Source: a virus
Virus record (IMG/VR): IMGVR_UViG_3300010371_000007
Span: 1 to 57,735 of that record
Length of the DNA stretch: 57,735 bases
Strand: one strand, 5' to 3'
Made by a program: the position numbers and the translations under genes. Positions 20,694 through 31,069 of this stretch are shown here, one piece after another (position 1 is the first letter of the stretch; each line of letters begins with the position of its first letter). A model generated the notes under the pieces. The model did not search any database, was not told the DNA's origin, and saw only the letters and a program-made list of their open reading frames with translations.

Positions 20694-21197
20694 ATGTCGG
20701 CATCTAGCGGGTTCATGACGGGTCTGCTGCAGGGCGTTGCTGCCGGCAAGGTGCTCGGCGATCGTTTCGCAATGTCTCGGTCCAACAGCCGCATGCAGGC
20801 GGTGCAGGACGCCATCGACGCGGGCAAGTACACCAACGATGCCGCTGGGCAGGCGCAGCTCCAGACCGACCTGCGCAACGCGCAAGCGCCGTTGTCGAAC
20901 CGCGGCATGGACGATACCTACGGTGAAGACCAGTATTCGCGCCTGCTCGACCTAGAAGCTCCGCGCCGCGCAGCAGGCGGGGTCCAGTGTCCCTGCGTCG
21001 GCGCCGGGCGCCGACGGCGCGTCCTCGCTGCCGCCGGATTACAGCGGCGCACTGAGTGGCTACGCGACGAACCTGCGCGGACTCGGCGACCTGCAGGGCG
21101 GCATGCAGGCAGACCAGATGTCGGGCCAGATCACAGCAGGTCGCAACGCGATCAACCAGACGGGCCAGATGTCGCCGACCGGCACGCAGCCGGGTGA
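20694..21197 (+). CDS. N-terminal part of the transglycosylase ejection protein (frame broken)
   Basis: As read, 167 residues. Only the first 87 or so look coding ('SSGFMTGLLQGVAAGKVLG', 'QAVQDAIDAGKYTND', 'GEDQYSRLLDLE'). Beyond 20955 this frame turns Arg-rich and loses GC3 bias, while the +1 frame becomes coding and runs to 22647. The natural product is therefore probably one protein of about 650 residues joined by a +1 shift near GAC CTA GAA GCT (20949-20960). The break may be a sequencing indel, a real mutation or programmed frameshifting. Starts two bases after the previous stop. Confidence 0.65.
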   Translation: MSASSGFMTGLLQGVAAGKVLGDRFAMSRSNSRMQAVQDAIDAGKYTNDAAGQAQLQTDLRNAQAPLSNRGMDDTYGEDQYSRLLDLEAPRRAAGGVQCPCVGAGRRRRVLAAAGLQRRTEWLRDEPARTRRPAGRHAGRPDVGPDHSRSQRDQPDGPDVADRHAAG

Positions 21198-22647
21198 GGT
21201 GGATCAGGCGCGACTGGGGGCGGGCGTGGCGGCGAACAATGCCGCCATGGGCGATGCCAGTGGCTCGGCGCAGTGGGGTGACCGTGCGAAGCAGCAGGGC
21301 GATACCCAGCTGCAGGGAATGCTCGGTCGCGCGCTGACCATGGCGCAGAACCCTTCGCTGGGTGGCATGCAGGGCGCCGCACCGTTCCTCAATTCCGCTG
21401 CGCAGATGATGGGCTACGGCCAAGTGCAGTATTCGCCGAGTCAGGACTCGCTGACGGTGATGTCGCGCGACAACCAGCCACTGGCGACGATCAACCAGCA
21501 GAACATCCAGCAGTTCGCGGAAACGCTCGGCAACCAACCTGAGAACCTGCTCGGCAACCTGCGTGCGCTGCAGACCCAGCAGTATCAGGCCGCTACGAAG
21601 CAGCGCACGGACGACTACAACGCAGGCCGCTACACGCTGCTCGGGCTCGCCAAGAGCGCGCCGAGCGATGCCATGCTCAATCAGGCGGAACGTATCGCCG
21701 TGTCGAGCAGCAACGCGGCGGAGAAAACGAACTGGCAGACCATCTCGACGACGCCAGTCACCGACAAGGACGGCGCGCCGACGGGCGTGGTGCGCTCGAT
21801 CGTGAAGCCGCCCGGTAGCCCGGCGCTGATCCTCACCGTGCTGCCCGAAGACCCCTCCAAGCCGGCGCAGCCAGCGTACCGGCTCCAGCGGCAGGACGGC
21901 TCCGATGTGTCCGGCAACGAGCTAGGCCAGTACGCTGCGTCCGCACAGATTGTGGCGCAGGCGGCGCGCGACCGCGCCATGCTCGACAACCTGAAGCTCA
22001 ATCAGGCTCGGTTCCAGCAGGGGCGCGCGAACGTCTACGACGTGCTGGGTTCGCTCGGCTCAGGTGCCTTCGGTGGGTCAATGCCACAAGGTGGCCAGCT
22101 GCCACCTCCGCATGCCATTACGAGCGCACAGGTGCAGGTCGAGTCTGGCGGCAACCAGAACGCGGTCTCACCCAAGGGCGCCGTTGGCGCCATGCAGCTG
22201 ATGCCCGACACGGCGCGCGAGCAGGAACAGAAGCTCGGCTTGGCGCCGGGCTCAACAGACACGTCGGCCGCGGCGAACACGAAGGCAGGCGAAGCGTACC
22301 GCCAGCAGCTGGTGGCGCGGTACACGAAACAGTCGGGCAACGAGCTCACCGGCCTCGCGCAGGGTCTGATCGCCTACAACATGGGTCCGGGCAAGACGGA
22401 CAAGTGGCTGGCCGCCGGCGCTGACCCGGCGAAGCTGCCGAAGGAAACCCGCGACTACGTGACCAAGGTTTTCTCGAAACTGGGCCTCCCCGGAATGACC
22501 GCAGCGCGCGGCAGTTCTGGCATCATGGGCGCCAGCGCGGAGCCGAAGCTGCCGAAGGTGAAGCTCAACGCTGCGGGGACCGCCCCGCTCACCTCGGCGC
22601 CCACGGCGAAACTCTCCAACGGGCCGGCAAACAAGTACCTCCTCTAA
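21103..22647 (+). CDS. Ejection protein with C-terminal lytic transglycosylase (SLT) domain
   Basis: 514 residues from the first ATG, but the coding signal in this frame starts right after a TAG at 20953 (reads KLRAAQQAG...), so the true N-terminus is almost certainly the 20694 frame. The SLT domain lies at about 345-450: 'ITSAQVQVESGG' (catalytic Glu), 'KGAVGAMQLMPDTA', 'IAYNMGPG' and 'ETRDYVTKV'. Such domains open peptidoglycan during DNA entry, as in T7 gp16. No RBS precedes ATG 21103. Confidence 0.8.
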   Translation: MQADQMSGQITAGRNAINQTGQMSPTGTQPGEVDQARLGAGVAANNAAMGDASGSAQWGDRAKQQGDTQLQGMLGRALTMAQNPSLGGMQGAAPFLNSAAQMMGYGQVQYSPSQDSLTVMSRDNQPLATINQQNIQQFAETLGNQPENLLGNLRALQTQQYQAATKQRTDDYNAGRYTLLGLAKSAPSDAMLNQAERIAVSSSNAAEKTNWQTISTTPVTDKDGAPTGVVRSIVKPPGSPALILTVLPEDPSKPAQPAYRLQRQDGSDVSGNELGQYAASAQIVAQAARDRAMLDNLKLNQARFQQGRANVYDVLGSLGSGAFGGSMPQGGQLPPPHAITSAQVQVESGGNQNAVSPKGAVGAMQLMPDTAREQEQKLGLAPGSTDTSAAANTKAGEAYRQQLVARYTKQSGNELTGLAQGLIAYNMGPGKTDKWLAAGADPAKLPKETRDYVTKVFSKLGLPGMTAARGSSGIMGASAEPKLPKVKLNAAGTAPLTSAPTAKLSNGPANKYLL

Positions 22648-22656
22648 GGACGATCC

Positions 22657-25611
22657 ATGGCCGACTTCACCGACCCGATCACGCAGGCACTCCAGCAGCG
22701 CCTTGCGTCCGGCCCGACGATCTCGGACAACGGCACGCCCCGAGGCGACGCGCAGCTCCAGCAGAACCTCGCCGATGTCACTGCCTCGGCGTCGAATGGC
22801 GCGGTGGGTGGTGCGATGGGCGCCATGGGTGGCGCCGCGGCACAGGCGCCGGAAGCGACGTTCTACGCGTACAACCCGCACACGGACACCCTGCTCGTCA
22901 ACGGCGAGGCCGTCCCCCACGATTTCCAAGCGTGGTCGCATGTCGCGTCGGTGAGTCCAGACCAGCTGCGGCCGATGTCGGTCAGCGCCGTGTCCGAGGA
23001 TGGCTACATCCCACTGACGCAAGGGCGCTTGCAGGAGTTTCTGCAGCAGACGGACCAGAACGCGCAGTCGCATTTCACCGGCGACACGCTGAGCCATCTC
23101 TGGACGGGCACCGTGCGCATGGCGGGCGGCCTCGCACGTGAGCTTCCTCGTGTACTGGCGGGTACACCCGATGGGCGCATGGCGGCGTTCGCAGGTGACG
23201 CGCTGGCTAGCGGGTTGGGTGTAGACCCGAGCAAGTACGGCGGCTTGGCTGCCGCTGCGCAGGACGTGGGCCGGAACATTTCCGACACGAATGCCGCCTA
23301 TGCCCAACAGTGGGATGCCGACCGCCGCGCGGGCCAGACGCTGGCCGAGCAGGCGTACAGCGACTCGACGTTCAGCGCGCACCCACTGCGCGCCACAGGC
23401 AATCTGATATCGAACCAGCTGGCGGAGAGCATCCCCGCGATCGGCGCGTTCGCGTTCAACCCTGCGGCCGGCGCGCTCGCGATCGGTGGGCAGGGCGCAC
23501 AGATGAACGCCGAGAACGCGGGTCAGCGCTTCGACGCGTGGCGACAGGCGCACCCCGAGCAGTTCTCGGCGACCAACCCTGTCTATGCGCAGCTGCGTGC
23601 GCAAGGTCTGAGTGACGAGCAGACCGTCGCCGCGATGCGCCAGCAGTCGATGGACGTCGCCGGTGATGTCGGCGGTGCCCTGTCGCTGGCCACGGCGCCG
23701 CTGGCAGGACGCATCCCGCTGGCCGCGATCGGCCGTGCGTCTGCGCTGGCGCCCGCCATGGGCGGATCGGGCATCGGGTCGTTCATCGGCCGACGGCTCG
23801 CCATGAGCGGACTGACGGCAGCCGAGGGTGCCGGTATCGGCGCGGTGTCGAACATTCCGGGTCAGGTGGCAGCGGACGCCACCAGCGGTCGCGGTGTCCA
23901 AGGCGTGGGAGACTACACGCACGGCCTCGGTGAGATGGCGCTGCTCGGTGGCCTCATGGGCAGCGTGACGCGCGCGCCGGTGCGCAACGCCGCCGCTGCA
24001 TCGGATATCGCCGCGGCCACGGGTGCGATCCCCGGCAAGTCCCCGGTGAGTGACGCCAACCCGGCGCCCACCGGCATGCCGCAGATGCCGCTCCCCGACG
24101 TGCAAGGCCCGGCGCCCGCTGGCGCACCGCCCGTCCCCGGCTCCCCCGCGCGGCCGATGCCGCAGCCGGGCGAGATGGGCGATCTGCTCGGTGGGCAGCC
24201 GCGCCCAGCACCACAGCCCTCCGCTCCGGAGCCCGGCGCGGCGACACCGCCGGCGTTCAACCCGAACCAGACCGAACTCCCCGGGGTGCCGCCGGTCGGT
24301 CCGCAGCTGCCGCAGCGCGCCGGGCCGTCCCTGATCCAGCAGCGCGCAGCTGAACAGGCTGCCGCGCAGAACGCTCCGGCGCCCGCCGAGCCAGCCGGCG
24401 CGCTCCCCGCGCCCGGCATCACGCCGGCGCAAACGGAAGCCGCGGCCAGCGCGCACCAGTCGCTCCAGATGGTCCAGAACCTGCTGGACTCCGGGCAGTT
24501 CAACAAGCGCACGAAGACGGGCAAGGCGACGATCGACCAGCTGACGGCCGAACGCGACCGGCTGCAGGCCGTCGTGGACCAGCACCAGAACGACATACTG
24601 GCCGACCAGATCGCGCAGGCGCGCGCGGCGCGACCACCACAGCCGCCCGCTTCGTTCGTCGAGGACGCGAACGGCCAGCGCGGTCTGCCCGGTGTCGAGC
24701 CCGTGTCCACCCCGGACGGCGCGCCGCCGGCGAACATGGAGCCGGCACCGATCGGTCAGGACCAGCCGATGTCGCCGCAGGAGGCGCAGGCGCGCCTCGC
24801 CATGCAGCGCGCGCGCAACCCGGAGAACCGGCCGCCGCAGGAGGACTTGTTCCCGCGCCAGCTGAAGCAGGGGCTGCAGGCGGTCATCGACAAGAGCCGT
24901 CAGAGCGTGTCCGAGTCGACGCCAGAGCCTGCGGTGGACTTGGCGGCGCAGATGGCCGCGCTCAAGTCCGGCGCGCGGGACGCGGTGTTCGTCGCTGCAG
25001 GCAACGAGGCGCAGGCACCGAAGGTAGCCGGCAAGGCGGTCCGAAAGGTCGTGCGTCCGGAGGGGACGCTGTACACCACGAACGCAGCGAAAGCCAAAGC
25101 CTACAGGGAGGCGCCGGCGCTCAATGACGACATTCTCGCCCGCATGCAGGACTTGCCACAGTCGAAAGCTGACGCTGTACAGCGAGGCGACACGACTGTC
25201 ACTCAGGCGCTGGACGCGAATGGCGCCGTGGTCAAAGAGGCACTGGGGAAGGGAAACACGGCTGCGGTCGCGGAAGCGGCACCACCCGGTGGCGCAGTGC
25301 GCCAGTTGCCGGCCGAGGCGGCACAAGCGCGTCGCGCGGAGCTGAACGCTCGATTCGACCGCGGCGAGGCGATGTCGAACGCCGACCTGCGAGCTGCTGT
25401 CACACACGCAAGCGGAGCGCGACACGGGCGCGCCGGGCCAGCAGCCGTTGGAGGGCATGCTGAACGGCACGGCAGGCCCGCGCGCGGCGGCAGAGGCTGG
25501 TCACAAGGGTTTCCTGCATGCCGACATGAACGGCCTCAAGGCCATCAACGACACGGCGGGTCACGCGGCCGGCGACGCGCTGCTGCAGGCGTTCGGCTCG
25601 CTGTACCGTGA
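22657..25611 (+). CDS. Very large ejection protein, N-terminal section
   Basis: 984 residues as read. Residues 1-450 contain Gly/Ala-rich hydrophobic segments ('AIGAFAFNPAAGALAIGGQG', 'SGIGSFIGRRLAMSGLTAAE') that could insert into a membrane. Residues 460-620 are a Pro-rich linker, followed by helices up to 'AMSNADL'. After about 25390 the frame looks non-coding (His/Gly/Arg-rich) and the +1 frame continues with the GGDEF-containing open frame. The real product may thus be one protein of about 2,600 residues. Start nine bases after the SLT gene, good RBS. Confidence 0.75.
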   Translation: MADFTDPITQALQQRLASGPTISDNGTPRGDAQLQQNLADVTASASNGAVGGAMGAMGGAAAQAPEATFYAYNPHTDTLLVNGEAVPHDFQAWSHVASVSPDQLRPMSVSAVSEDGYIPLTQGRLQEFLQQTDQNAQSHFTGDTLSHLWTGTVRMAGGLARELPRVLAGTPDGRMAAFAGDALASGLGVDPSKYGGLAAAAQDVGRNISDTNAAYAQQWDADRRAGQTLAEQAYSDSTFSAHPLRATGNLISNQLAESIPAIGAFAFNPAAGALAIGGQGAQMNAENAGQRFDAWRQAHPEQFSATNPVYAQLRAQGLSDEQTVAAMRQQSMDVAGDVGGALSLATAPLAGRIPLAAIGRASALAPAMGGSGIGSFIGRRLAMSGLTAAEGAGIGAVSNIPGQVAADATSGRGVQGVGDYTHGLGEMALLGGLMGSVTRAPVRNAAAASDIAAATGAIPGKSPVSDANPAPTGMPQMPLPDVQGPAPAGAPPVPGSPARPMPQPGEMGDLLGGQPRPAPQPSAPEPGAATPPAFNPNQTELPGVPPVGPQLPQRAGPSLIQQRAAEQAAAQNAPAPAEPAGALPAPGITPAQTEAAASAHQSLQMVQNLLDSGQFNKRTKTGKATIDQLTAERDRLQAVVDQHQNDILADQIAQARAARPPQPPASFVEDANGQRGLPGVEPVSTPDGAPPANMEPAPIGQDQPMSPQEAQARLAMQRARNPENRPPQEDLFPRQLKQGLQAVIDKSRQSVSESTPEPAVDLAAQMAALKSGARDAVFVAAGNEAQAPKVAGKAVRKVVRPEGTLYTTNAAKAKAYREAPALNDDILARMQDLPQSKADAVQRGDTTVTQALDANGAVVKEALGKGNTAAVAEAAPPGGAVRQLPAEAAQARRAELNARFDRGEAMSNADLRAAVTHASGARHGRAGPAAVGGHAERHGRPARGGRGWSQGFPACRHERPQGHQRHGGSRGRRRAAAGVRLAVP

Positions 25612-28600
25612 CGTGGCGCGCCGGCACGGTGGCACGCCGTGGCTCGCCGGCGGCGACGAGTTCGTCTCGTCGTACCCGACGCGCGCGGCTGCGCAGAAGG
25701 CGCACGCAGAGCTGCAGGCGCTGGCGAAAAACCACGTCGTCGATTTCCAAGCCAACGACGGCACCACTCACCGAATCGAAGGCGTCGGGTTTGCCGGCGG
25801 GGTAGGGAAAAATGTCCGAGAAGCCGATGCAGCCTCTGAAGCCGCCAAGCGTGCCCACTACGCCAGCTCCGGCACCGAACGACGCGTCGGGTCAGCCCCC
25901 GGCCGTCGTGCACAAGAACCTCACCCTGCAACAGATCGCCGAGCTGATGAAGGCGCAGGGCGTGCAGCCGGGAAGCGTGCGCGTGTTCCCGAGCCCGCGC
26001 CGCGTGAAGTAAAGCCCACCCGCGCGGAACAGCTGAAGGCCAAGACGGCGGCGAAGCGTGAGGCCAAGGCCGACGCTTCGCGCGTCGAGTCTGTCATCGG
26101 TAAAAAAAAAGTCACGCCCGAGGAGCTAAGCGCCCGGACCCGCGCAAGCGACGCTGACGTCGCCGCGGCGACCAAGACGCTGCAGGAGGACGTGGCCGCG
26201 AACCACCCGCAGCACGTCGACGCGTTCGCCGCACAGGCGCATGAGGGCGCCGGGCGCCAGCCCGAGTCCCCGCTGCTGTCGGTGCCGCTGACCGAGCGCG
26301 AGCTGGGCACCGTGGGCGAGCGCGTGCAGGCGACGGCACAGGCGGAGCACGCGCAGGTCAAGGACGGCTCGTGGTCGCCGGCCAAGTCGGTGGTCGCGCG
26401 CGTGCTCGACGCCGCCGGCATGACGCTGGAGGGGTCGAAGCTCAAGGCCGCGATCCAGTCGTTCGCCGAGGCCACGCCGAAGCAGCTGAAGGCGTTCATG
26501 GAGATGGTCGCGCCGCGGCTCGCCGACTCGACGCTTGCCAAGGGCATTGCGCGCGGGATGGACAACGTGCGTGCGGCAGCCAAGGACACGAACAGCGACA
26601 TCCGCGAGATGGCGCTCGGCACGCCGAAGGCACCGAAGCCTGACAAGGCGCCCGAGAAAAACGACGCCTTCAGCGGCGGCCGCGTCACCATGTACGGCCA
26701 CGACGTGCCGGCCGCGGCCGGTCGCGCCGTGCGCCACTGGGTGGGTACGTTCGAGAAGACGTCCGGCCAGTTCCTCCCCGACGAGCTGCACGTGATGTCG
26801 CCGGCGGAGGCCAGCGCACGCTACGGGCAGGACTTCGGCAGTGAGGGGTTCTCCGGTGCGGCCAAGAACCCCGAGACGGGCGCCATGGAGCACGTGATCG
26901 CGGTCGACTGGAAGCGCGTCGGGGATGGTCCGGCGGCCGTGGAGGCGCTGGCGCACGAGTTCGCCCACACCGCCATGGACCACGTGTTCGACAAGCTCCC
27001 CAAGGTGGATCAGGACGCCGTGCGCAGTGCGTACAACGACTGGCTCAAGGCGCAGGGGCGCGGCACGCCGACAGAGACGCTGCTGAACCGCCTGCCGCCA
27101 GCGCTGGCGGACCTCGCGCGCGAGGTGGGGTCGAAGCCCGAGCGCGCCTATGCGGAGAGCTGGCACGAGTGGCTGGCCGACCAGACGGCGAAGTGGATGC
27201 TCACCGATGCCCGGCCGCGCACGGCGGTGGAGCGGTTTTTCGGCCGTCTGGCCGACGCATTCCAGAAGCTCTACGCCAGCGTGACCGGCCGCGGTCGCCC
27301 CACCGACGCCGTGGCGGCGATGATGGACAACCTCGTCGAGCGGTCGCAGAACCTGCGACAGCAGGATGCCACGGTGCGCGCCAACGAGATGACTTATGGC
27401 CGTGAGGCGGCCACGCCGCCCCCGGCGCCCGAGCTGGCGCGCCAGAAGATCGACGTGCGTGCGGTGCAGGCGCGGGTCGACCGCACGCTGCAGGGCGCCA
27501 AGGCGCTCGGCGACGACGTGGGCAAGATGCTCGGGGGCGACACCCATGCCGTGCTCGACCGCCTCAACCGTTCGTGGTCGCACCTCGCGGAGGGGAAGGC
27601 CGGCGACCTCATGCGGAACATCTTCCATGGTGTCATGTCCATGCGCGACATCGTGGACCGATACCGCAAGCGGGGGGAGTTCGGCGAGGGGCTGGTCGAC
27701 TGGGACAACGCCATGCGCGCCGCCGAGAAGCACTCGCGCGAGGTGCAGCAGTCGGCGAACATCGCCAGCGAGCAGGCGCACCGCCTGAGCGCCCCGGTGC
27801 GCACCGCCCTGAACACGCTGATGTACAAGACCACGACGTGGGGTATCCACCCGGACGAGGCGTTCGGCACGGGCCGCAACGCGCACCTCGCCGACGCCGA
27901 CAAGACCGTCGAGGGGAACAACCGAGCGCGCTACAACGAGGTGCGCCAGTTGTGGGACCAGATGCGCAGTATCCCCGGCGACCCGCAGCGGATCTTCAAG
28001 CAGCTGGCTGGCGCGCTGCGCACGATCCAGCACGAGACGTTCACCGCGCGCCACGCGAACATCGATCGCCTCCAGCTGTCCGAAGCGGCGAAGGCGGAGA
28101 TGCACGCCCTGCTCGACGCGCAGGAAGCCCGGATGGTCAAGGGTCCGTATTTCCCGCTGACGCGACAGGGCAACTACATCACCTCGGTAACGATGCCGCA
28201 GACCCGCGTGGGCGAGTACCCGACCAAGGCGGAAGCGAAGCGCATCGCGGACCAGCAGAAGTCGATCAACCCGCACGCGGACGTGACGGTCTCAAAGACA
28301 CCGGACGACACGTGGGATGTGCATGTGGGCGAGAAGGCGGTTTACTTCCACCCCACCCTGCGCGACGCCAAGGAAGCCCAAGCGGGCATCTTGCGTGAGG
28401 TGAAGGAAGCGTGGGCGCACATGGGCGTCGACTACGACATGGCGCAGACCGAGCTGGGGCGCTCGATGGTCAAGGGTCCGTTCCACACGCAGGACTTCTA
28501 TCGCAAGATGGAGGTTCCGAACTTCAACAAGTTCACCCACGAGCTGAACGACCTGTACGCCAAGGGCCAGATCGACCCCGAGGTGTATAAGACATTCAGC

Positions 28601-30508
28601 GAGATGGTGATCGAGGCGCTGCCTGAGACCAGCACGCGCAAGTCGGGCCTCGCGCGGCAGAACATCCGCGGCGCCGATCAGGACATGCTGGGCGGCTACG
28701 TGCGTCACGTCGCCGGCGCCGCGCACGCCTACGGCAAGACGAAGGTCGCGCGCGACATCAACGACGCGTGGGCGCTGATGCACAAGCATGCAGATAGCGA
28801 GCCCGAGCTGAACACCGTCATGAACAGCCTGCGCAACCGGCAGGAAGTGCTGGCGAAGCGCATGGCGCGCAACTGGGAGAACACCACGGCGAACACGCTA
28901 CAGGACATGTCCAGCATGATGTCGCTCGGCATGTCACCGGCGTTCATGGTGCAGCAGGCGCTGCAGCCGATCGTGGTCACGCTGCCGGTACTCGCTGCGC
29001 GCAACATGGAGCGGGGCGGCAAGGCGGTCGGCTACGGCCACGCCATGCAGTACCTGAAGGACGCCTACCAAGGCGCCGTGCCGTTCTTCACCAAGCGCGG
29101 CGGTGAGCAGTTCATGGCCGAAGCGCGCCGCATGCTCGGCACCTACGCGGGCGAGGGGAAGACGCTGCAGGAGTCGGCCAACGACATGATCTCCACGTTC
29201 GGCAAGAACGCCAACGAGCGCGAGATGCTGGAGTACATGCACGCCCGCGGCACGCTCGACTTCGCGTTCCTGAACGCCGTCGCCGATGCTGCGTCGTCCT
29301 CGAAGTTTGGTGATAAGACAAAGGCCGCGCTGCGTATCGCGATGGCGCTCCCCCAGCAGATCGAGGCAATGAACCGCATGGTCTCCGGGCTCGCCGCGTA
29401 CCGCCTCGCGCGTGACCTGCGCGGATTCGACCACGCGCAGGCGATGCACGAGGCGGACACGGTGGTCTCGCAGACGCACGGCGACTACAGCCGCTACAAC
29501 CGCCCCAGCGCGTTCAACCGGCCGTGGGTCGGCATGGCGCTGCAGTTCAAGATGTATACCCAGTTCGTCTACTCGCTGCTGGTGCGCAACTTCGCGAACA
29601 TGATGGACCGCAGCCTGACGAAGGACGAGCGCACGCAGGCGGCGCGCACGCTCGGTTACGTGATCGGCAGCCACGCCACGTTCGGCGGCCTGACCGGCAT
29701 CGGTCCCGTCGCCGCTGCGGCGAAGGTGGGGCTGGGCGGCCTGATGTACGCGGCGGCCGGCGCCGGCGTGATCGACCCGAAAAAGCGCGACCAGACGGTC
29801 GGTGACTGGATCGACGCGAACTTCAACCAGTGGGCGGATGACTCGCTCGGCAAGGGCGCCGGCGCGTACCTGTCGAAGATCGCGGCCTACGGCCTGCCCG
29901 CGGCGGCGAACATCAACATCGCCAACAAGATCGGCATCCCCGACCTGACCGACTCGCGCTACATGGGCAAGGCGGACAAGGCCAGCGACACGATCGGCCA
30001 GCAGGTGCTCGCGATGCTCGGCCCGGTCTACGCGAACGCGGTGCGCGTCGCCGATGGCGCGCAGCAGCTCACGAAGGGGAACCTCGGGGCGGCGGGCAAG
30101 CTGATGCTGCCGGCGGCACCGCGCGCCATCCTGAACGCGATCACGGAGCAGCAGGACGGCGTGGCCACGTCGAGCGGCAACGTGATCCGACCGGCGGCGG
30201 ACCTGTCGCCCTACCGGACGTTCCTGCGCGCCATGGGGCTGCAGGACGCCGACACATCGCGCATCTACGACCAGCGCAGCGCGCGGTACGCCGCGAAGGA
30301 CCGGATCACCAGCGAGCGTACCGACCTGTTGCAGGAGTACGCGCAGGCGAAGGGCGATGACCGCCACGACGTCGCGCTGAAGATTGCCGCGTTCAACAAG
30401 GGCCGCGCGCCGGAGTTCCAGATCTCGCCGGCAACGCTGCAGCGCCAGCTCCAGCGTCAGCCGATGTCGAAGACGGACCGCGCCGCAGCACGCGCGATCG
30501 GACAGTAG
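25448..30508 (+). CDS. Giant polyvalent ejection protein with GGDEF domain and HEFAH zincin motif
   Basis: 1,686 residues from a TTG; the frame is open from 25346 and probably continues the 22657 gene by a +1 shift, since no good start exists. Residues about 1-145: a GGDEF-type nucleotide cyclase domain with 'HADMNGLKAINDTAGH', 'AAGDALL', the signature GGDEF (68-72) and a C-terminal 'EADAASEAAKRAHYASSG'. The Arg/Lys usually two or three residues before GGDEF is replaced ('WLAGGDEF'). Residues about 410-610: a zinc metallopeptidase-like segment with HEFAH (503-507) and a downstream acidic helix. The remaining 1,000 residues are helical with Gly/Ala-rich membrane-like segments, typical of large podovirus ejection proteins. 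It ends at a strong terminator. Confidence 0.82.
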   Translation: MEGMLNGTAGPRAAAEAGHKGFLHADMNGLKAINDTAGHAAGDALLQAFGSLYRDVARRHGGTPWLAGGDEFVSSYPTRAAAQKAHAELQALAKNHVVDFQANDGTTHRIEGVGFAGGVGKNVREADAASEAAKRAHYASSGTERRVGSAPGRRAQEPHPATDRRADEGAGRAAGKRARVPEPAPREVKPTRAEQLKAKTAAKREAKADASRVESVIGKKKVTPEELSARTRASDADVAAATKTLQEDVAANHPQHVDAFAAQAHEGAGRQPESPLLSVPLTERELGTVGERVQATAQAEHAQVKDGSWSPAKSVVARVLDAAGMTLEGSKLKAAIQSFAEATPKQLKAFMEMVAPRLADSTLAKGIARGMDNVRAAAKDTNSDIREMALGTPKAPKPDKAPEKNDAFSGGRVTMYGHDVPAAAGRAVRHWVGTFEKTSGQFLPDELHVMSPAEASARYGQDFGSEGFSGAAKNPETGAMEHVIAVDWKRVGDGPAAVEALAHEFAHTAMDHVFDKLPKVDQDAVRSAYNDWLKAQGRGTPTETLLNRLPPALADLAREVGSKPERAYAESWHEWLADQTAKWMLTDARPRTAVERFFGRLADAFQKLYASVTGRGRPTDAVAAMMDNLVERSQNLRQQDATVRANEMTYGREAATPPPAPELARQKIDVRAVQARVDRTLQGAKALGDDVGKMLGGDTHAVLDRLNRSWSHLAEGKAGDLMRNIFHGVMSMRDIVDRYRKRGEFGEGLVDWDNAMRAAEKHSREVQQSANIASEQAHRLSAPVRTALNTLMYKTTTWGIHPDEAFGTGRNAHLADADKTVEGNNRARYNEVRQLWDQMRSIPGDPQRIFKQLAGALRTIQHETFTARHANIDRLQLSEAAKAEMHALLDAQEARMVKGPYFPLTRQGNYITSVTMPQTRVGEYPTKAEAKRIADQQKSINPHADVTVSKTPDDTWDVHVGEKAVYFHPTLRDAKEAQAGILREVKEAWAHMGVDYDMAQTELGRSMVKGPFHTQDFYRKMEVPNFNKFTHELNDLYAKGQIDPEVYKTFSEMVIEALPETSTRKSGLARQNIRGADQDMLGGYVRHVAGAAHAYGKTKVARDINDAWALMHKHADSEPELNTVMNSLRNRQEVLAKRMARNWENTTANTLQDMSSMMSLGMSPAFMVQQALQPIVVTLPVLAARNMERGGKAVGYGHAMQYLKDAYQGAVPFFTKRGGEQFMAEARRMLGTYAGEGKTLQESANDMISTFGKNANEREMLEYMHARGTLDFAFLNAVADAASSSKFGDKTKAALRIAMALPQQIEAMNRMVSGLAAYRLARDLRGFDHAQAMHEADTVVSQTHGDYSRYNRPSAFNRPWVGMALQFKMYTQFVYSLLVRNFANMMDRSLTKDERTQAARTLGYVIGSHATFGGLTGIGPVAAAAKVGLGGLMYAAAGAGVIDPKKRDQTVGDWIDANFNQWADDSLGKGAGAYLSKIAAYGLPAAANINIANKIGIPDLTDSRYMGKADKASDTIGQQVLAMLGPVYANAVRVADGAQQLTKGNLGAAGKLMLPAAPRAILNAITEQQDGVATSSGNVIRPAADLSPYRTFLRAMGLQDADTSRIYDQRSARYAAKDRITSERTDLLQEYAQAKGDDRHDVALKIAAFNKGRAPEFQISPATLQRQLQRQPMSKTDRAAARAIGQ
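25812..26012 (+). CDS. Nested 66-residue protein inside the giant ejection gene
   Basis: 66 residues in a third frame. The ATG follows GGGTAGGGAAAA. The N-terminal half is Pro-rich, the C-terminal half has 'NLTLQQIAELMKAQGVQ', like a small helical or HTH-type unit. Between about 25880 and 26010 this frame has the strong G/C third-position bias of the genome, while the host frame does not and reads as a charged linker. That is good evidence of an overprinted gene, or of two further compensating frame breaks. Function unknown. Confidence 0.5.
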   Translation: MSEKPMQPLKPPSVPTTPAPAPNDASGQPPAVVHKNLTLQQIAELMKAQGVQPGSVRVFPSPRRVK

Positions 30509-30844: not shown

Positions 30845-31069
30845 TCAGAAGAAACTGGGCTTCGCCACGCCGCGCGTGAGCGCCATGAGACCAGTCTGCA
30901 GGTCTGTCGCACCGATGCTAACCCAACGCTGGTCGACTTCCGAGTTCGCTCGCAGCTGAGCGACCAGTTCGCCGAGCACGACGCCTTGCGCCTTGATCTG
31001 GTTCATGAGGTCGATCTCGGTCTGCGATAGCTCGCGGTAGCCTTTTATCTGACGATGCTGATTGTCCAT
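30845..31069 (-). CDS. acb2: Acb2/Tad1-type hairpin protein, probable anti-CBASS cyclic-nucleotide sponge
   Basis: 74 residues. The whole protein fits the compact helical-hairpin family (DUF7681): 'HRQIKGYRELSQTEIDLMN', 'IKAQGVVLGELV', then 'DQRWVSIGATDLQTGLMAL' and 'TRGVAKPSFF' at the end. Known members bind and hide cyclic di- and trinucleotides made by CBASS (and related signals of Thoeris for Tad1-like forms), so that the host effector is not switched on. AGGAGA precedes the ATG. It lies at the distal end of the leftward replication operon, behind the primase-helicase. The exact ligand cannot be read from the sequence. Confidence 0.8.
   Translation of the reverse strand: MDNQHRQIKGYRELSQTEIDLMNQIKAQGVVLGELVAQLRANSEVDQRWVSIGATDLQTGLMALTRGVAKPSFF

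Follow-up and report, generated by a model that had tools for sequence, protein, structure and literature searches.

Does the giant, probably injected protein of this phage carry a genuine nucleotide cyclase domain, and could such a domain act on the host from the start of infection? We addressed this question in the window, that is, the whole 57,735-nucleotide stretch of IMG/VR record IMGVR_UViG_3300010371_000007. The PF00990 profile matched the domain with a score of 43.7 bits (cutoff 23.8), which is a true GGDEF match with chance excluded, and a profile search of the whole record found no second domain of this type. The motif order given by the first-pass annotation (HADMNGLKAIND, GH, GD, GGDEF and a closing AKR) was recovered in the frame that it had named, with the GHAAGD motif in the frame of the domain and the closing EAD...AAKR motif ending near position 25861. 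The AlphaFold2 model of the domain, built from a 14-sequence alignment (pLDDT 88.7, pTM 0.85), alternates helices and strands in the order of a palm domain. Foldseek comparison of this model with the PDB showed that GGDEF proteins fill the top 50 matches, the best being diguanylate cyclase GGDEF domains (SadC at E 1.7e-8), while Marinobacter 3ign gave the highest TMq (0.74) and DosC and PleD were also matched. The domain is thus predicted to have the RRM-like palm fold of the GGDEF family, and the profile score, the modelled fold and the PDB matches agree with the diguanylate cyclase-type layout that had been proposed. Two observations had been named as speaking against that proposal, a model without the palm core and a loss of the GGDEF motif or the metal Asp in relatives; the model contains the core, and the residues are conserved in the alignment.

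We then compared the window gene with its intact IMG/VR relatives, L002 and L004, in which the giant protein is encoded by a single ORF of 2576 and 2622 residues, respectively. The domain lies at residues ~900-1050 of these proteins and, because their ORFs run through and the domain is internal, its placement at the start of the giant protein, as first annotated, was rejected. The apparent start in the window results from a split of the gene at ~25388. Residues 1-881 of L002 matched positions 22657-25440 at 45% identity in tblastn searches, and residues 865-2576 matched the frame ending at 30508 at 65% identity. The distance between the conserved GE and EL codons is 28 nucleotides in the window rather than the 30 found in both L002 and L004; since the relatives have a single ORF, this indicates one frame break in the window copy, either a real mutation or an assembly error. 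A programmed frameshift at 25388 was not supported, as the relatives need none. The GC content by frame had also raised the idea that the GGDEF domain ends a separate gene and that the giant protein starts at the ATG at 25812; this was rejected because the +1 signal at that position is a nested ORF and the main frame is unbroken in L002 and L004. No relative of the window giant gene was detected at the DNA level in the phage collection searched.

The single break might mean that the giant gene or its domain is decaying, or that the break is an assembly artefact, and that the window copy is non-functional. We regard such a remnant as very improbable, because both halves are open, resemble the intact relatives at the identities given above and have no further break, and because the nested gene is also retained. 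Comparison with a third relative, L005, showed a continuous ORF of 2421 residues that is 55% identical in its C-terminal part and has no GGDEF stretch, so the domain is an optional module.

Table 1. Features of the giant gene and its surroundings (positions in the window).
Feature	Position	Strand	Basis or remark
Virion lytic transglycosylase-type protein, adjoining the giant gene	21103..22647	+	phrog_2013, phrog_669, phrog_342
N-terminal part of the giant polyvalent protein	22657..25611	+	tblastn with L002 protein; genuine coding sequence up to ~25388, out of frame beyond
Open frame with the GGDEF domain and the remainder of the giant protein	25346..30508	+	65% identity to L002 residues 865-2576
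Frame break within the giant gene, frame 1 to frame 2	25385..25392	+	nucleotide spacing compared with L002 and L004
GGDEF domain region	25391..25900	+	HMM core 25496-25855
HADMNGLKAIND, metal Asp, Lys and guanine-binding Asn	25517..25552	+	D, K and N unchanged across all compared phage giants
WLAGGDEFV, putative catalytic hairpin with Leu replacing Arg/His at -2	25640..25666	+	alignment
Gene nested in the +1 frame, 66 aa, with its start within the final helix of the domain	25812..26012	+	start and stop shared with L002 and L004
HEFAHTAMD, HExxH zincin-like peptidase motif of the same protein	26954..26980	+	sequence; kept in L002 and L004, HEMGH in L005
LPD39 large-polyvalent-protein domain	27590..28153	+	PF18858, 27 bits, exactly at the cutoff of 27
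PLxRFG (tail-700) C-terminal region	28571..30478	+	NF032893, 216.8 bits, cutoff 100
Acb2/Tad1-type cyclic-nucleotide sponge, convergent with the giant gene	30845..31069 (gene); 30860..31042 (PF24729)	-	60.9 bits, cutoff 27

The remaining features of the giant protein place the domain in its context. Polyvalent proteins are recognized by unrelated enzymatic domains joined in one chain together with LPD-type domains, and the GGDEF domain, the HExxH motif, LPD39 and the PLxRFG region occur together here; judged from its sequence, the giant protein has the anatomy of a polyvalent protein. The order of the genes, an internal virion protein (phrog_511), a virion protein, the lytic transglycosylase and the giant protein, suggests that the giant protein is packaged and ejected with the DNA. 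The profile, the fold and the neighbouring virion genes agree with the initial view of a GGDEF-family palm domain in a phage polyvalent or ejection-type protein.

A search for the domain in other phage giant proteins, proposed with the first annotation, was made by alignment-guided scans of viral contigs and genome contigs and found related domains within the giant ORFs of ~30 further non-identical contigs. Seven of the 40 proteins tallied as giants were long bacterial-type cyclases, which left ~33 phage giants. PF00990 scored between 36.8 and 48.6 bits in the giants L024, L027, L037 and L038. Close relatives of the window domain were also sought in bacterial genomes, and none was found. In L036 (3437-3850), the GGDEF-like domain of a 3073-residue giant is apparently permuted, an SGDEF hairpin (GFFHRSGDEFAAIFDDG) preceding the metal-Asp strand (IAAIDMDGLKRIND). 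The Myxococcus phage Mx1 (L008, 7875-8606) encodes a 243-residue 'nucleotide cyclase' with a GGDEF motif, which may also be a virion component because its gene lies between those of a putative prohead protease and the major capsid protein.

Pfam detected an inorganic pyrophosphatase domain (PF18823) in three giants, and a profile built from these three detected it in ten non-identical GGDEF giants. In nine of the ten, 106 to 237 residues separate it from the GGDEF motif, on the N-terminal or the C-terminal side. The giants in which a pyrophosphatase was seen close to the GGDEF domain are L027, L036, L044, L088, L090, L091, L093, L098, L105 and L108. The same profile found no pyrophosphatase domain in the window clade (the window, L002 and L004). 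A neighbouring pyrophosphatase would clear the PPi that a cyclase produces, which suggests active catalysis in the wider family of giants. This bears on the possibility that the domain is a module for the structure or assembly of the virion core, in which the cyclase fold is re-used without a signalling role. The position of the domain in a large protein among virion genes and its absence from one relative fit such a module, but its catalytic residues are conserved across ~33 divergent giants, the adjacent pyrophosphatase suggests chemistry and standalone relatives exist in YuA-type phages, and we consider this alternative unlikely.

Between L002 and L004, no segment of the giant protein is under stronger constraint than the domain: its pN/pS is 0.072, compared with 0.13-0.25 for most other segments and 0.59 for the linker that follows it. 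In PleD numbering, we take N335 and D344 to be the residues that bind guanine and Lys-442 and Arg-446 to be those that contact phosphate. The Asn and the Asp are both present in the window, L002 and L004. The equivalent of Lys-442 is conserved in this clade, and the expected position of Arg-446 has no Arg, yet an Arg directly follows the Lys. Alignment of the ~33 phage giants showed that the metal Asp, the Lys, the Asn, the GDE and the Lys-442 equivalent are invariant and that the first G of GGDEF is replaced by S in most of them.

The positively charged residue before GGDEF had been reported as missing, and indeed a Leu is found at position -2 of the window domain. This Leu occurs only in the window, L002 and L004, compared with an Arg or a His in the other phage giants and an Arg in 24 of 24 bacterial-type sequences. 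Most phage forms read Y[HR]xSGDEF and the window clade reads WLAGGDEF. The DxLTGLxNR motif is degenerate in the window clade (DTGAPGQQ) and kept in most other phage giants, and no RxxD site was found in the sequences of the window clade. In a quick tree of GGDEF domains, midpoint rooted and read with branch support not considered, phage and bacterial-type domains formed separate groups, with a long branch leading to the window clade.

These residues leave the catalytic activity of the window clade uncertain. The domain may be a GGDEF without catalytic activity whose role is to bind GTP or a cyclic dinucleotide, as an allosteric sensor, timer or competitor within the ejected protein. The clade-specific Leu at -2, the missing Arg-446 equivalent and N-terminal motif, the long branch in the tree and the lack of a pyrophosphatase partner all point in this direction. 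Dead GGDEF domains, however, usually lose some of the metal, acidic, guanine-binding and Lys-442 residues, and the window clade keeps the metal Asp, both acidic residues of GGDEF, the guanine Asn and Asp and the Lys-442 equivalent under strong constraint; we therefore hold a dead binder to be possible but doubtful. Given Leu at position -2 and the loss of the second residue that would bind phosphate, weak or altered activity is possible as well. An SGDEF motif, the usual phage form, has been deduced to make c-di-GMP in V. cholerae MbaA (PMC8079147), and in related palm enzymes an Asn or a Ser in the base pocket steers recognition towards guanine or adenine, respectively (PMC12657218). The base-recognition residue of the window domain is an Asn, which makes guanine its more likely substrate base.

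Our preferred explanation is that a podovirus-like phage encodes a polyvalent ejection protein of ~2,600 residues, the middle of which holds a modular nucleotidyl-cyclase domain of the GGDEF family. The giant protein would be packaged and would enter the cell together with the DNA. At its conserved Asn, Asp and metal site, the domain would bind GTP, from which it would make c-di-GMP or another, related guanine dinucleotide as infection begins, and the product would shift host signalling or defence. What counts for this explanation is the HMM and fold matches, the lowest pN/pS, the invariant residues, the pyrophosphatase adjacency, the virion gene order, the activity deduced for the SGDEF form in MbaA and the Asn. 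Against it stand the losses in the window clade (the -2 Arg/His, the DxLTGLxNR motif and the Arg-446 equivalent), its lack of a pyrophosphatase, the survival of L005 without the domain and the frame break in the window copy. As a whole, we give the ejected cyclase an even chance of being correct, and active signal synthesis in the window clade itself could about equally well hold or fail. If the domain is active, phages would deliver a synthase of signal nucleotides as soon as infection begins and ahead of all phage gene expression, a new means of setting host c-di-GMP or of jamming defences based on nucleotides. The intact domains of L002 and L004 and the giants with an adjoining pyrophosphatase make activity testable.

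The first-pass annotation had connected the domain with a cyclic-nucleotide sponge in the same phage. The sponge itself was confirmed by its PF24729 match (Table 1), but the connection did not hold: L002 and L004 have the GGDEF domain and gave no match to PF24729. A coupling of the domain to the Acb2 sponge was therefore rejected, and the two are not a fixed pair.

Comparison with known systems showed several likenesses. GGDEF domains in polyvalent proteins were described by Iyer et al. in 2017, who proposed a cyclic-nucleotide role, considered the domain not very widespread and named one prophage example in the text (PMC5512222). In their systems and in ours, the GGDEF domain belongs to giant phage proteins that combine several enzymes and are thought to be injected. 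What is new here is the breadth of the family in giants (~30 phage contigs), the pyrophosphatase adjacency, the Leu clade and the nested +1 gene. The standalone phage GGDEF proteins, YuA gp44 of the Pseudomonas YuA type and those of Bordetella Vojvodinavirus, are likewise of the short [SG]GDE(F) type and close to the giant-protein domains in the tree; unlike the window domain, the YuA gp44-type proteins are standalone, with ~150 residues, keep the Arg at -2 and, in YuA, are encoded outside the virion block. The bacterial PleD, WspR, SadC and DosC share with the window domain the palm fold, the metal Asp, the GGDEF motif, the guanine Asn and Asp and the Lys-442 equivalent, but their identity to it in structural alignment is 19-28%, and the window domain, embedded in mid-protein, has no RxxD I-site, no -2 Arg and no sensor domain. 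The mCpol/OptS enzyme of Panoptes and the Cas10 palm belong to the same palm superfamily, and OptS makes cyclic dinucleotides in phage conflict; these are, however, bacterial defence enzymes, and the window sequence is clearly GGDEF with a guanine-type Asn.

The nested gene was first flagged by third-position GC in a second frame between 25812 and 26012. Its counterparts lie at 8422-8619 of L002 and 7299-7496 of L004, and the nested protein of the window is 49-51% identical to these two, which are 69% identical to each other. The excess of the +1 frame over the main frame peaks at the nested site in all three pairwise comparisons. Synonymous redraws of the main frame (2000 trials per pair) gave maximum nested scores of 101-138, compared with observed scores of 145-228, although this control ignores shared ancestry and is generous for the closest pair. 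A +1 ORF of at least 45 codons with an ATG start at the same place was found in 25 of the 33 giants, compared with 4.3 expected from other sites of the same genes and a maximum of 14 across 200,000 draws, and in 0 of 33 in the +2 frame; the 33 include the window clade and, the loci being partly related, are not fully independent. Such nested ORFs were also seen in L024, L028, L044, L046, L047 and many of L087-L111. No +1 ORF comparable to those of the giants was found in the standalone YuA-type and Bordetella GGDEF genes.

Part of the regularity of the start site follows from conserved main-frame motifs (G-x-G, E-A-D), which is why codon choice and C-terminal conservation matter as tests. A ribosome-binding-like sequence precedes 20 of the 25 nested starts, compared with 6.5% of other +1 ATGs, and the Gly codons just upstream of the nested start are GGA or GGG in 32 of 39 cases, compared with 406 of 1139 elsewhere (p = 7e-9). 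The 59 Asn codons of the window frame include a single AAT, and this codon creates the nested ATG, which a ribosome-binding site precedes. Many nested proteins share the ending ..LPPGGKLTVTLPPK. The nested ORF thus appears, from its codons and its conservation, to be a conserved gene with a selected start and selected ribosome-binding codons. The nested protein of the window is divergent, with 9-28% identity to members outside the window clade, so its homology to these rests mainly on position and a similar pattern. The family had no match in PHROGs, in the PDB by profile or in phages by tblastn, a non-exhaustive literature search found no publication on the gene, and the structure model was poor (pLDDT 65), for which reason we make no claim on the fold.

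The GGDEF module and its nested partner gene may travel as a cassette in which the nested protein, made in the producing cell, controls or accompanies the cyclase, for example by silencing it until the cyclase is ejected alone into the next host. We offer this reading tentatively, as it is rather improbable; if it were true, the signal-making enzyme that phages inject would be regulated by a protein overprinted on it. The nested +1 gene is an independent, widely conserved gene that apparently lacks annotation, within a class of phage proteins already known. Two giants, L099 (8506-8661) and L111 (8596-8793), contain nested +1 ORFs of another type (MPFKSRKQQAFLNAHPEK... and MIKKTSQGYQVTSRKGKPLSK..., respectively), which have good ribosome-binding sites and resemble common small phage proteins.
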